Source of the DNA: Firmicutes bacterium HGW-Firmicutes-3
GTDB lineage: Bacteria; Bacillota; Clostridia; Lachnospirales; Vallitaleaceae
DNA length: 39,494 bases
Direction of reading: 5' to 3'
Assembly (NCBI GenBank): GCA_002841435.1
Contig: PGZS01000006.1
Span: forward strand, 1 to 39,494
Both the position numbers and the translations under genes were made by a program. Positions 3,894 to 7,281 of the stretch are shown in pieces. The notes beneath the pieces were generated by a model that made no database searches, was not told where the DNA came from, and saw nothing but the letters and a program-made list of their open reading frames with translations. Position 1 is the stretch's first letter; every line of letters begins with the position of its first letter.

Positions 3894-3943
3894 TAGGTAT
3901 ACGACTGCTTGGGATTGGTGAGATGATGTTGTGAAAAAGAGAG

Positions 3944-3977
3944 TTAATATACTTTTTTGTATATTGGCTTTTTTTTT
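3944..3977 (+). terminator. Terminator after the MATE gene
   Basis: AATATAC (3946-3952) pairs with GTATATT (3959-3965) around a TTTTTT loop, the stem is extended by two G-T pairs, and a run of nine T follows at 3969-3977. Position and shape fit an intrinsic terminator. Confidence 0.75.
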
Positions 3978-4076
3978 GATATATCATAGCTTATGATTTG
4001 ATATTTTGAGTATTGCCTATTGTTATTCTTGTTAAATAATACTTTAATACAGGTTCTAGTTTCATATCTTAGAATA

Positions 4077-4228
4077 CTTGGTCTAGGTTAAGGATTGGAA
4101 AATACTTTAACCAAGCTAAGAACCAGAAAACACTTGGTACGGGTTAAAACCCGGAAAGTGCTTGGTACGGCTTAAAACCCGGAAAACACTTGGTACGGGT
4201 TAAAACCCGGAAAGTGCTTGGCTTTTTT
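4077..4228 (+). repeat. Five tandem 28-bp dyad repeats ending in a T-run
   Basis: Units are 4077-4104, 4105-4132, 4133-4160, 4161-4188 and 4189-4216, all starting with CTT. A sixth start (CTTGGC) leads into TTTTTT at 4223-4228. The last three are nearly identical and contain the dyad CGGGTTAAAACCCG (CGGCTTAAAACCCG in the fourth), flanked by CACTTGG and AAAGTG, which extend the symmetry. The first two are degenerate. The array occupies the 370 bases between the MATE gene and the SatD-like gene, after the terminator at 3944. It could form serial RNA hairpins with a final terminator, or be a protein-binding array. There is no spacer structure, so it is not CRISPR. Confidence 0.85.
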
Positions 4229-4263
4229 AAGGATATATGGTAATCTTATTAAGAAAGGTTGGG

Positions 4264-5130
4264 ATGACAATGAGTGATATGAGTACCCGTTTACATGTTA
4301 AAGAATTAAAAAGAAGATTTTCAAAAAGGAAGATAATCACAGTAAGCGATTTCAATGAATTTTATGGAGAAGTTTTTGGGTCGATAAAAAAAGGCACAGT
4401 AAGCTGGTATATTTATGAGTTGAAGAATAAAAATGTTATTCGAAATATTTCTAGAGGCCAATATGTGTTAGTGGATTCTAAGGATGTGGATGATCGTGAA
4501 TTCATTGTTATAACAATGGATATAATAAAATCATCAGACATGGATTATATTGAATTTAACAATAGTTTAACTAAGAAAGTTGATGAACTGAATTTGATAA
4601 TTAGTAATGAATATGGATATAATAGAAGTTACTATATTTCACAAGGTGACGAAATACAAATCGTATGTGATTTTGATGAAAATATCGGAAATTTATTTAT
4701 GCTTACATTAAGTTGCTTACATCCGTTTAAAGTAAGATATGGTATGGGTATTGGAGATGTTGGAGAAGAATTAAAGAAGAATTCGTGGGAAATGAATGGT
4801 CCAATATTTTGGAATGCAAGAGACCAACTAATGAAATTAAAGAATGTAAAGGACTATGATGGTCTAATTATAAGTGATAGTAGTGAGATTGATCAAGTGT
4901 GTAACAATATACTTCCAATAATAAATGAAATGATAAAAAAGGTAACAGATAAGCAGTGGGACGTAGTAAAAGCTGAGTTGTCAAAAATTAGTATAAGGGA
5001 AACAATATCGAAAATAGGAATTAGTAAAACTAGTTATTATGATAGACTGAGTGGTTCTAATTTGGAAGAAATTATCAAGGCATTTAAAGCGATAATAAGG
5101 CTACTTAGAATCAGGAGGAGCGTTAACTAA
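4264..5130 (+). CDS. Winged-helix/SatD-like regulator with cyclase-like core
   Basis: About 288 aa from the ATG at 4264 (AAGAAAGG at 4251-4258). ATGs at 4237 and 4270 are alternatives; the one at 4237 has AAGGA only 3 bases away. Residues 9-70 resemble the winged-helix DNA-binding part of AbiEi-type antitoxins (KKGTVSWYIYELKNKNVIRNISRGQYVL). Residues 80-195 resemble the SatD family: MDIIKSS with D86, SQGDEIQ (128-130 are GDE), RYGMGIGD (158-165) and NGPIFWNARDQLMKLK. This pattern recalls the ferredoxin-like palm of GGDEF domains and class III cyclases, but the enzymatic idea is inference. Residues 245-262 look like a second helix-turn-helix (ETISKIGISKTSYYDRL). The stop overlaps the next gene's ATG by one base. 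Base composition is low, 18 G+C in the 60 bases sampled at 4861-4920. Function unknown. Confidence 0.7.
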   Translation: MTMSDMSTRLHVKELKRRFSKRKIITVSDFNEFYGEVFGSIKKGTVSWYIYELKNKNVIRNISRGQYVLVDSKDVDDREFIVITMDIIKSSDMDYIEFNNSLTKKVDELNLIISNEYGYNRSYYISQGDEIQIVCDFDENIGNLFMLTLSCLHPFKVRYGMGIGDVGEELKKNSWEMNGPIFWNARDQLMKLKNVKDYDGLIISDSSEIDQVCNNILPIINEMIKKVTDKQWDVVKAELSKISIRETISKIGISKTSYYDRLSGSNLEEIIKAFKAIIRLLRIRRSVN

Positions 5131-5951
5131 TGATAACAATTAGTTTATTGATTTCACATGTACTATCAGATTTAATTTTACAAACGGACAAGATTGTAGA
5201 AGAGAAATCTACTATGAAAAAAAGTGGATATTTTTGGCATGCTATAGGATTAATTGGAACTTCAGCACCTATTTTATTCTTTTTGAAATTAAGCAGTATG
5301 GGATTGGTATTTATATGCATATGTTTAATAACGTTAACACATTTGATTTTAGATTTTTGTAAAGAAGTATTGCAGAATAAACTAGCTTCAAACAATGATA
5401 GTAGATATTATAATGTAGGCATATTCATAGCTGATCAAATACTACATATATTAACTGTAATTATAATCACAAGCGTTATTATAAATGATGTAACCATCGA
5501 GTTTAATTTTATAAATGATTTTTTTATAAATGTAGTTCTGCAAAATGGTAGTCTAAATTATGCAGATTTTAAAATGATTTTTCTGATTGGATATATAGCA
5601 TTTTCAGGCGCGTACCTGATTCCGTTATTATTTGAAGTTATTTATGCGAAAATACCAAATTATGGAACTATTTTAAACAGTAAACTGAAGGAGGATTTGA
5701 ATCAGGGTGAATACGGATTTATTGATGAAGTAAAGACAGGAAAATGGATAGGAATATTGGAGAGAATACTAATTATCATCTTTATATATACAAATCAATT
5801 GGCAACAATAGGTTTTATAGTTGCGATGAAATCTTTAGCAAGATTTAAAATGATGGATAATAAAATATTTTCTGAGTATTACTTATTAGGAACCTTTATA
5901 AGTATGGTATATACATTTGTTGCATATGCATTATTTAATGCGATTCTTTGA
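5130..5951 (+). CDS. DUF3307 family integral membrane protein
   Basis: A 273-residue membrane protein. Its first helix has the DUF3307 signature LISHVLSDLILQTDKIVEEKS, then a second segment with HAIGLIGT and a third with LTHLILDFCKE; conserved His and Asp residues sit at membrane edges. Further hydrophobic stretches lie near residues 100-125, 148-172, 210-235 and 245-270. The family has no established biochemical role. AGGAGG at 5113-5118 lies inside the upstream gene, and the TAATG overlap implies translational coupling with the SatD-like protein. SatD-like and DUF3307 genes are known to me as frequent neighbours, which suggests a regulator/membrane-partner pair. Sequence is AT-rich (16 G+C in 60 at 5161-5220). 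Confidence 0.75.
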   Translation: MITISLLISHVLSDLILQTDKIVEEKSTMKKSGYFWHAIGLIGTSAPILFFLKLSSMGLVFICICLITLTHLILDFCKEVLQNKLASNNDSRYYNVGIFIADQILHILTVIIITSVIINDVTIEFNFINDFFINVVLQNGSLNYADFKMIFLIGYIAFSGAYLIPLLFEVIYAKIPNYGTILNSKLKEDLNQGEYGFIDEVKTGKWIGILERILIIIFIYTNQLATIGFIVAMKSLARFKMMDNKIFSEYYLLGTFISMVYTFVAYALFNAIL

Positions 5952-5984
5952 ATAATAATTGACCCTTTTACCATAGTTACTATT

Positions 5985-6013
5985 TTTACGATTGAATAGA
6001 ATAATTGTATAAT
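5985..6013 (+). promoter_or_regulatory. Promoter for the MFS gene
   Basis: TTTACG at 5985-5990, a 17-base spacer and a perfect TATAAT at 6008-6013. A second TATAAT with a TGn extension lies at 6073-6078 but lacks a good -35. Either could drive the gene at 6118. Confidence 0.5.
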
Positions 6014-6117
6014 AAGCCAGTATATTGTTAGACATGCATAAGTATGCGTAGTATTCTTATATTTATCATTGTTATAATTTAAGAAGTTAATGAAAAAAGA
6101 CTTAAGGAGAAAACATC

Positions 6118-7281
6118 ATGTCGCTTTTAATCATAATTTATTTAGCATTTATTAGTTTAGGATTGCCAGATGCATTACTTGGTTCATCATGGACTGTCAT
6201 GCATTTGGAATTTGGGGTATCTATTGAGTTTGCCGGAGCAATAGCCATGGTCATCAGCGGAGGTACAATTTTATCTAGTTTATTTTCATCCAGAGTTATT
6301 CGTAGATTTGGAACAGGAAAAGTTGTTGCTGTGAGTGTTACAATGACGGCAATCGCACTCATTGGCTTTTCGGTATCCAGTGCAATATGGATGCTTATAT
6401 TATGTGCCATCCCACTTGGACTTGGTGCAGGTGCAGTTGATGCTGCACTAAATAATTTTGTTGCACTTCATTACAAACCCCGTCATATGAATTGGCTTCA
6501 TTGTTTTTGGGGCGTAGGCGCATCTGGGGGACCTTTAATTCTAGGATTAATAATAGCAAGAAATGGTACTTGGAGAAATGGGTATACGGTCGTTGGTATC
6601 ATTCAGTTTATCTTGGTCGTTGTACTATTTATTACATTACCAATGTGGAAAAGATTTACAAACGAACTGCCAAAAAATGATCATGAAGATACGACATTTA
6701 TATCGAATCGTGAAGCTTTTAAAATTAAAGGTGTAAAATTAGTACTTGTTACATTTCTATTCTATTGTTCATTAGAAGCGGGTACAGGATTATGGGCTGC
6801 CAGTTATTTAACCACACAAAGAGGCGTATCACCTGCTAATGCAGCATTATGGACATCGTTGTACTATGGTGGTATTACTGCAGGCAGATTCTTATCTGGT
6901 ATTATTGCAGATAAGATAAAAGGAGAAACACTTATTAGGGGAGGCTTGGTTATGATCCTTGGTGGTGTTGTCCTACTGATATTGCCTTTGCCGTTAATTT
7001 TAAGTATGTCAGGTTTGCTGTTGATTGGCCTTGGTTGTGCACCAATATATCCGAGTATGATTCATTTAACACCTGATCGTTTCGGTAAGGTTGCATCCCA
7101 ATCCATAATAGGACTTTCCATGGCATTTGCATATATTGGAAGCACATTTATGCCACCACTTCTAGGAGCGGTTGCATCCGTCCTTACTTTAAAGATTTTA
7201 CCCTATGCATTGCTTATATTCGCTGTTGGAATGATTATAAGTAGTGAGCGTTTAAGAAAAACTATAACTTTACCGCAATAA
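6118..7281 (+). CDS. Major facilitator superfamily transporter
   Basis: 387 residues, about twelve hydrophobic segments, with AAGGAG 8 bases ahead of the ATG. The first helix reads FISLGLPDALLGSSW and the loop after helix 2 has the MFS pattern RVIRRFGTGKVV. The second half repeats the fold with GRFLSGIIADKIKGE in its 2-3 loop, and WLHCFWGVGASGGPLI resembles the sugar-type FHS/YfkF-like MFS proteins of Firmicutes. The substrate is unknown. The gene converges on an AraC-type regulator with only 66 bases between them and no convincing terminator. It has its own promoter candidates, so it is probably monocistronic. Confidence 0.85.
   Translation: MSLLIIIYLAFISLGLPDALLGSSWTVMHLEFGVSIEFAGAIAMVISGGTILSSLFSSRVIRRFGTGKVVAVSVTMTAIALIGFSVSSAIWMLILCAIPLGLGAGAVDAALNNFVALHYKPRHMNWLHCFWGVGASGGPLILGLIIARNGTWRNGYTVVGIIQFILVVVLFITLPMWKRFTNELPKNDHEDTTFISNREAFKIKGVKLVLVTFLFYCSLEAGTGLWAASYLTTQRGVSPANAALWTSLYYGGITAGRFLSGIIADKIKGETLIRGGLVMILGGVVLLILPLPLILSMSGLLLIGLGCAPIYPSMIHLTPDRFGKVASQSIIGLSMAFAYIGSTFMPPLLGAVASVLTLKILPYALLIFAVGMIISSERLRKTITLPQ

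Follow-up and report, generated by a model that had tools for sequence, protein, structure and literature searches.

What does a SatD-family protein do beside a DUF3307 membrane protein, and in which direction, if any, does one control the other? The question is raised by two overlapping genes in a 39,494-nt stretch of DNA from Firmicutes bacterium HGW-Firmicutes-3 (GenBank assembly GCA_002841435.1, contig PGZS01000006.1), referred to below at its full length as the window. Almost no literature on SatD or DUF3307 was found, and to our knowledge no activity has been described for DUF3307.

The features of the locus are collected in Table 1. The first product belongs to PF16264 (SatD; residues 80-267 of 288, E=2.7e-14, 53.8 bits against a cut-off of 29) and the second to PF11750 (DUF3307; residues 2-119 of 273, E=6.4e-17, 62.2 bits against a cut-off of 23), and the AbiEi profile of PADLOC covers residues 10-73 of the satD product. 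The single base in which the two reading frames overlap is the common A of TAATG, and an alternative in-frame ATG for satD lies at 4237. The G+C content over the pair is 27-31% (30.9% and 27.1% in two 1-kb intervals), versus ~34-42% over most other parts of the window. The initial annotation had described these reading frames with their one-base overlap, an AbiEi-like winged helix joined to a SatD core and an AT-rich patch; the ORF list, Pfam, PADLOC and the base composition agree with it on every point. Rfam gave no match anywhere in the window and NCBIfam no useful one; neither a terminator nor a promoter above chance was picked out. The window proteins had zero matches among phage records, and among plasmid records matched only two haloarchaeal plasmids and, distantly, a Fusobacterium entry.

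Table 1. Features of the SatD-DUF3307 locus (window coordinates)
Feature	Position	Strand	Basis
SatD-family gene with an added N-terminal AbiEi-like winged helix, 288 aa	4264..5130	+	ORF, Pfam, PADLOC, AlphaFold2
N-terminal AbiEi-like winged helix, residues 3-69	4270..4470	+	PADLOC E=3e-12, alignment, model
Palm-type core, residues 76-206	4489..4881	+	VIA-align and Foldseek on the predicted model
Codon D86, end of first strand, putative metal ligand	4519..4521	+	D in 125/130 distinct SatD sequences
Codons G128-D129-E130, hairpin motif, putative metal site	4645..4653	+	family consensus LGDEFQG
C-terminal HTH region, residues 207-287; canonical SatD has one too	4882..5124	+	predicted model
DUF3307 multi-pass membrane protein gene, 273 aa	5130..5951	+	Pfam E=6.4e-17, all-helical model
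DUF3307 domain proper, residues 1-122	5130..5495	+	nine conserved polar residues
C-terminal module, residues 195-268, GxxIGxLER...AKSIAR...EYYLxGT	5712..5933	+	SatD-partnered DUF3307 only
Direct-repeat array, ~28 bp, core CTTGGTACGG[G/C]TTAAAACCCGGAAA	4089..4221	+	with CGGGTT..AACCCG inverted repeat
Variable insertion slot between MATE and MFS genes	3894..6117	.	comparison with three same-genus genomes

The two families go together far above chance, as had been suggested for this pair. Among 391 genomes of the class, SatD was found in 28 and DUF3307 in 29, with both present in 25 (Fisher p=4e-32). SatD also occurs in 55 of the 66 DUF3307 genomes among 398 of the phylum (p=7e-43), with a divergent SatD adjoining DUF3307 in 2 of the remaining 11, and in all 89 DUF3307 genomes among 196 of Streptococcus. 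In the loci examined, 98 DUF3307 genes lie no more than 300 bp from SatD. The pair is present in Streptococcus, Vagococcus and Chloroflexi, and on plasmids of the haloarchaea Halorientalis and Haloplanus; its spread is patchy, with SatD in 28/391 genomes of the class, 69/398 of the phylum and 97/196 of Streptococcus. The pairing is, with near certainty, real and old.

Several loci depart from the two-gene arrangement. A third gene, convergent and placed behind DUF3307, encodes a short (~130 aa) SatD core that lacks the HTH and keeps the metal-site residues (L037 6405-6806, L042 6979-7359, L043 6640-7038, L044 6865-7245, L045 8104-8508, L120 6991-7392); it is absent from the window. Its product may be a further subunit of the enzyme, an enzyme of opposite action or a decoy. 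SatD is fused to a long TPR array in L051 (4887-7169) and carries a 200-aa N-terminal extension in L134 (4837-6162), both possible sensor fusions. In L133 (2942-6348) SatD, DUF3307 and a 634-aa class III cyclase form one same-strand run, which brings both kinds of DUF3307 partner together.

The AlphaFold2 model of the window SatD (pLDDT 89.8, pTM 0.81) shows, at about residues 80-203, a palm-like core that mixes strands and helices. Using VIA-align, this core was matched to GTP cyclohydrolase III (Z 9.8, 116 aligned residues, 2.9 A), Cas10/Cmr2 (Z 9.4), GGDEF (Z 8.7) and adenylyl cyclase (Z 8.2), and the same group of palm enzymes dominates the Foldseek matches, with modest E-values (best 9e-4). 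On the strength of the predicted model, the core very probably has a palm fold. The initial annotation had named a fold unrelated to cyclases as an outcome that would count against it, and the best matches are cyclases and palm polymerases. The motifs that it had picked out, an Asp after the first strand (D86 in TMDII), GDE (G128-D129-E130) and GMGIGD (residues 160-165), all fall inside the SatD core, and its C-terminal HTH corresponds to a helical HTH region in the predicted structure. HTH segments of other family members match Sigma70_r4, HTH_23, GerE and YlxM-like profiles.

The putative metal site is nearly invariant among distinct SatD sequences (G128 in 132/132, D129 in 131/131, E130 in 128/131), and the family consensus at this hairpin recalls that of GGDEF. 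The window protein itself deviates at N178, where Asp is usual, and at S91, where Arg or Lys is usual. The class III trait, a palm fold with two metal-binding Asp residues in the first strand and the next hairpin, is present in the predicted SatD and is shared by GGDEF and Cas10. Sequence comparisons are more sparing. The mCpol profile matches 4 of 65 SatD members below threshold (best E 0.0022) and not the window protein, the GGDEF_2 profile matches four members weakly, likewise below threshold (best E 0.004), and a PDB sequence search with the SatD profile returned mostly HTH matches. The window SatD has no match to the Pfam profile of class III cyclases (Guanylate_cyc), and hhalign detected no similarity between SatD and 12 neighbouring class III cyclases; membership of SatD in the class III nucleotidyl cyclases is therefore unsupported. 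Because sequence profiles give no tie to class III, the label 'cyclase-like', which had been proposed for the core from the outset, rests on fold, motifs and genomic context, and in these respects it stands. The SatD core is probably a distant relative of nucleotidyl cyclases that works as they do.

The model of the DUF3307 protein is all-helical (pLDDT 91.6). Its nine conserved polar residues (H10, D14, Q18, H37, H71, D75, D102, Q103, H106) lie along predicted long hydrophobic helices or at their ends; conservation of each is ~93-99% among SatD-linked DUF3307 proteins and 15-17 of 17 among SatD-less ones. Since these residues are retained on long helices with or without SatD, they suggest a candidate intramembrane metal site. 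Searches of the model against PDB and viral structures yielded nothing significant (the best viral match, at E 0.65, is a phage DUF3307 model), and a DUF3307 scan of viral contigs gave no confirmed relative. No second Pfam family supports a tie between DUF3307 and a known hydrolase, so that kinship with metal-dependent membrane hydrolases is a guess. Stand-alone DUF3307 domains of ~105-120 aa are encoded in phages and prophages (L251 5364-5681; PHROG 2470), where exclusion, a decoy function or signalling of their own are candidate roles.

The C-terminal module of DUF3307 follows the partner. It is present in 95 of the 98 SatD-adjacent proteins, the other three being frameshifted, versus 0 of 17 SatD-less ones; four seemingly unpaired loci with the module do have SatD, which had been overlooked by the ORF caller. 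As judged from this distribution, the module is a candidate receptor or SatD-binding part, and because it is specific to SatD-partnered DUF3307 we infer that it is the likely receiver of the SatD signal.

Where SatD is missing, DUF3307 tends to have another cyclase beside it. A class III cyclase is a neighbour in 11 of 17 SatD-less loci versus 1 of 102 SatD-partnered ones (the exception being L133), and one further SatD-less locus adjoins a divergent PycC. Two loci, L259 and L262, encode a fusion of DUF3307 with a PycTM effector domain (E=4e-13 and 7e-12) next to PycC, E2, E1 and JAB genes (L259 1-4138; L262 1227-5537). DUF3307 is therefore part of an effector in a Pycsar-like setting. In layout, these two operons are the Pycsar counterpart of type II CBASS. 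In L171 and L172 a CHASE2-adenylate cyclase lies 25-30 bp upstream of DUF3307; clusters of a CHASE2-class III cyclase, DUF3307 and GAF/HD-GYP genes, some with NHL-repeat proteins, recur in these and other loci (L247, L249, L253, L258, L260). They apparently represent a separate signalling system that uses DUF3307, and they do not look like defence.

The direction of control is best approached through gene decay. Both genes are intact in 79 of the 97 Streptococcus genomes with SatD; of the others, 6 combine an intact SatD with a broken DUF3307, 7 have an intact SatD and no DUF3307, and all 5 with a broken SatD have a broken or absent DUF3307 as well (Fisher p=1.3e-4). DUF3307 was thus broken or lost beside an intact SatD 13 times and the reverse was seen 0 times, an asymmetry with p=2.4e-4, or ~0.016 by our estimate if seven of the events are independent, as they are partly linked by phylogeny. 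Two loci elsewhere run the other way: in L121, a MAG, satD is split by an insertion of ~110 bp beside an apparently intact DUF3307 gene, and in L195 satD carries a T5/T6 frameshift that is possibly a sequencing error. The L121 insertion (~6110-6220) is hairpin-rich, like a small palindromic mobile element. A neutral alternative that fits the asymmetry alone is that decay is generally commoner in the downstream gene of an operon.

An essential gene that is absent from many strains is typical of antitoxins. In a meta-analysis of transposon data from S. pyogenes, no accessory gene other than satD (carried by ~71% of genomes) ranked in the top quarter for essentiality (PMC11323703). One-sided decay and this essentiality, the adjacency of DUF3307 in S. 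pyogenes being presumed, together suggest that SatD restrains a toxic DUF3307, which we consider more likely than not. The initial annotation had suggested that SatD might control the membrane protein; the two are strongly coupled, and the likely direction, restraint rather than activation, had not been foreseen.

The window member has two peculiarities of its own. The cores of the upstream array (4133-4157, 4161-4185 and 4189-4213) are confined to this spot in the 2.99-Mb genome. In L045 satD is preceded by a homologous but degenerate array (local score 51; the next best SatD upstream region scores 23 and shuffled sequences at most 30), and among aligned SatD proteins L045 is the only other one with the winged helix; its SatD is 54% identical, comes from another family and has its own DUF3307. 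The winged helix may use the array as its operator; alternatively the array may be a structured leader RNA, its RNA fold having a z of -3.5.

The pair also occupies a variable slot. The flanking MATE and MFS genes are 92-96% identical in three genomes of the same genus, and the slot contents differ: G007 has SIR2 with AbiLi/AbiLii, G006 a large insertion that carries conjugation-type genes, and G008 a hydrolase and a nuclease. The very end of the DUF3307 gene survives in both G006 and G007, so the pair was once present there and then lost. The sibling slot loci comprise L303 5708-12096 (SIR2, AbiLi/AbiLii) and L301 4492-18001 (a mobile element whose genes include ParA/ParB-like and conjugation-type ones). 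Housekeeping neighbourhoods alone would have told against the defence idea as it was first put forward; defence-type settings are seen both in the PycTM-DUF3307 fusions of Pycsar-like operons and in this slot shared with SIR2/AbiL.

The explanation that we prefer, at a probability of roughly 0.4, is that a nucleotide made or handled by SatD keeps a harmful membrane effector, DUF3307, in check, and that the pair probably guards against phages. It draws on the pairing, the predicted fold, the conservation of the metal site, the exchange of SatD for class III cyclases, the PycTM-DUF3307 fusions and the one-sided decay. Points that weigh against it are the missing profile similarity to class III cyclases, the modest Foldseek E-values, N178 and S91 in the window protein, the lack of a fold match or described activity for DUF3307, the occurrence of DUF3307 alone in phages and in CHASE2-cyclase/HD-GYP operons, and the satD lesions of L121 and L195. 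In the scheme that follows we infer catalysis, the ligand, the toxicity of DUF3307, the trigger and the operator. In an uninfected cell the palm-fold SatD would make a nucleotide through the putative metal site of D86 and G128-D129-E130, and this would be read by the SatD-specific C-terminal module of DUF3307, keeping the effector off. SatD or its product would be lost, for example, when a phage uses up or captures nucleotide signals or shuts down host expression; the freed DUF3307 would then damage the membrane, leading to cell death or growth arrest, by the logic of Panoptes (mCpol-2TMbeta). In the window member the AbiEi-like domain would probably also repress its own operon at the 28-bp repeat array. 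Taken separately, the chances that restraint runs via a nucleotide are about even, and those that the pair serves defence slightly better than even.

Decay asymmetry and essentiality would fit equally well if SatD were a protein-only antitoxin or regulator, binding DUF3307 and/or repressing the operon through its HTHs, with the palm core as a nucleotide sensor and no messenger involved. Such a role would suit the HTH of canonical SatD, the winged helix that the window member shares with AbiEi-like antitoxins and the unique repeat array upstream of its gene. However, near-invariant metal-site residues are unexpected in a purely structural antitoxin, as are genuine class III cyclases in the place of SatD next to DUF3307, and we regard this reading as unlikely. 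These neighbouring cyclases, together with the DUF3307-PycTM fusions beside PycC, would accord with activating, Pycsar-like signalling, in which SatD stays silent until infection and its nucleotide then switches DUF3307 on; the published logic of Pycsar is activating too. Under this scheme cells should be able to do without the activator, whereas satD scores among the essential genes (PMC11323703), and decay of satD should need no earlier decay of DUF3307; we hold activation to be improbable.

A housekeeping role, in which the pair tunes membrane physiology or acid-stress signalling and has no part in defence, has history on its side: PMC11323703 cites an early link of the S. mutans sat genes to acid tolerance, and in S. 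suis a small RNA related to stress targets satD. The operons of DUF3307 with CHASE2 cyclases and HD-GYP genes would agree with it as well. Evidence against it comes from the patchy distribution given above, from a variable slot that also houses defence and mobile genes, and from fusion to a Pycsar effector; we think it quite doubtful.

If nucleotide-mediated restraint by SatD is correct, two families without a function gain a joint and testable role. It would explain why satD acts as an essential gene though many strains lack it, and satD should be dispensable once the DUF3307 gene is gone. Pycsar-like systems would gain a new effector domain, Panoptes and Clover would be joined by one more system that signals by inhibition, and the pair, so far associated with "acid tolerance" alone, may turn out to be an anti-phage alarm that has gone unrecognised. 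More tentatively still, SatD-DUF3307 may stand for a large class of immunity by inhibitory nucleotide signals that has so far escaped recognition, spread over Firmicutes, Chloroflexi and haloarchaea. It would combine a palm synthase that has its own DNA-binding domain with a new membrane effector domain, one with an intramembrane metal site and common to Pycsar.

Among the known systems closest to the pair is the SatD of the streptococcal sat locus, which also belongs to PF16264 and whose canonical members are followed by DUF3307; the window protein differs in its added AbiEi-like winged helix and in N178 and S91. That winged helix is related to the antitoxin of the AbiE type IV toxin-antitoxin systems, but there is no AbiEii nucleotidyltransferase toxin here, the partner being DUF3307 and the remainder of the protein SatD. 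Pycsar (PycC and PycTM) likewise sets a cyclase-type gene beside a transmembrane effector, and PycTM-DUF3307 fusions occur in Pycsar-like loci. In contrast, the window SatD has no PycC match and the window DUF3307 no match to PycTM/PycTIR or any other PADLOC model, and the logic proposed here is inhibitory, that of Pycsar being activating. Clover (CloA/CloB), where the nucleotide signal of a partner enzyme restrains a toxic effector (PMC12265719), resembles the pair in this supposed restraint and differs in its dNTPase effector, its different nucleotidyltransferase and its lack of a membrane effector.

A parallel in design is Panoptes (mCpol/OptS and 2TMbeta/OptE), in which mCpol constitutively makes a product that holds back the 2TMbeta effector, and cells that lose mCpol die (PMC12657230, PMC12657218). 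Neither of these papers mentions SatD or DUF3307. SatD differs from mCpol in its C-terminal HTH, here with a winged helix in addition, and in matching the mCpol profile only below threshold; DUF3307 differs from 2TMbeta in being all-helical with conserved His and Asp residues, the C-terminal beta-barrel of 2TMbeta being missing from the predicted model. In both systems two genes combine a Cas10-like palm-fold enzyme, a putative one in the case of SatD, with a membrane effector, likewise putative for DUF3307, and the restraint of effector by enzyme that was shown for Panoptes (PMC12657230, PMC12657218) is what we propose for SatD.
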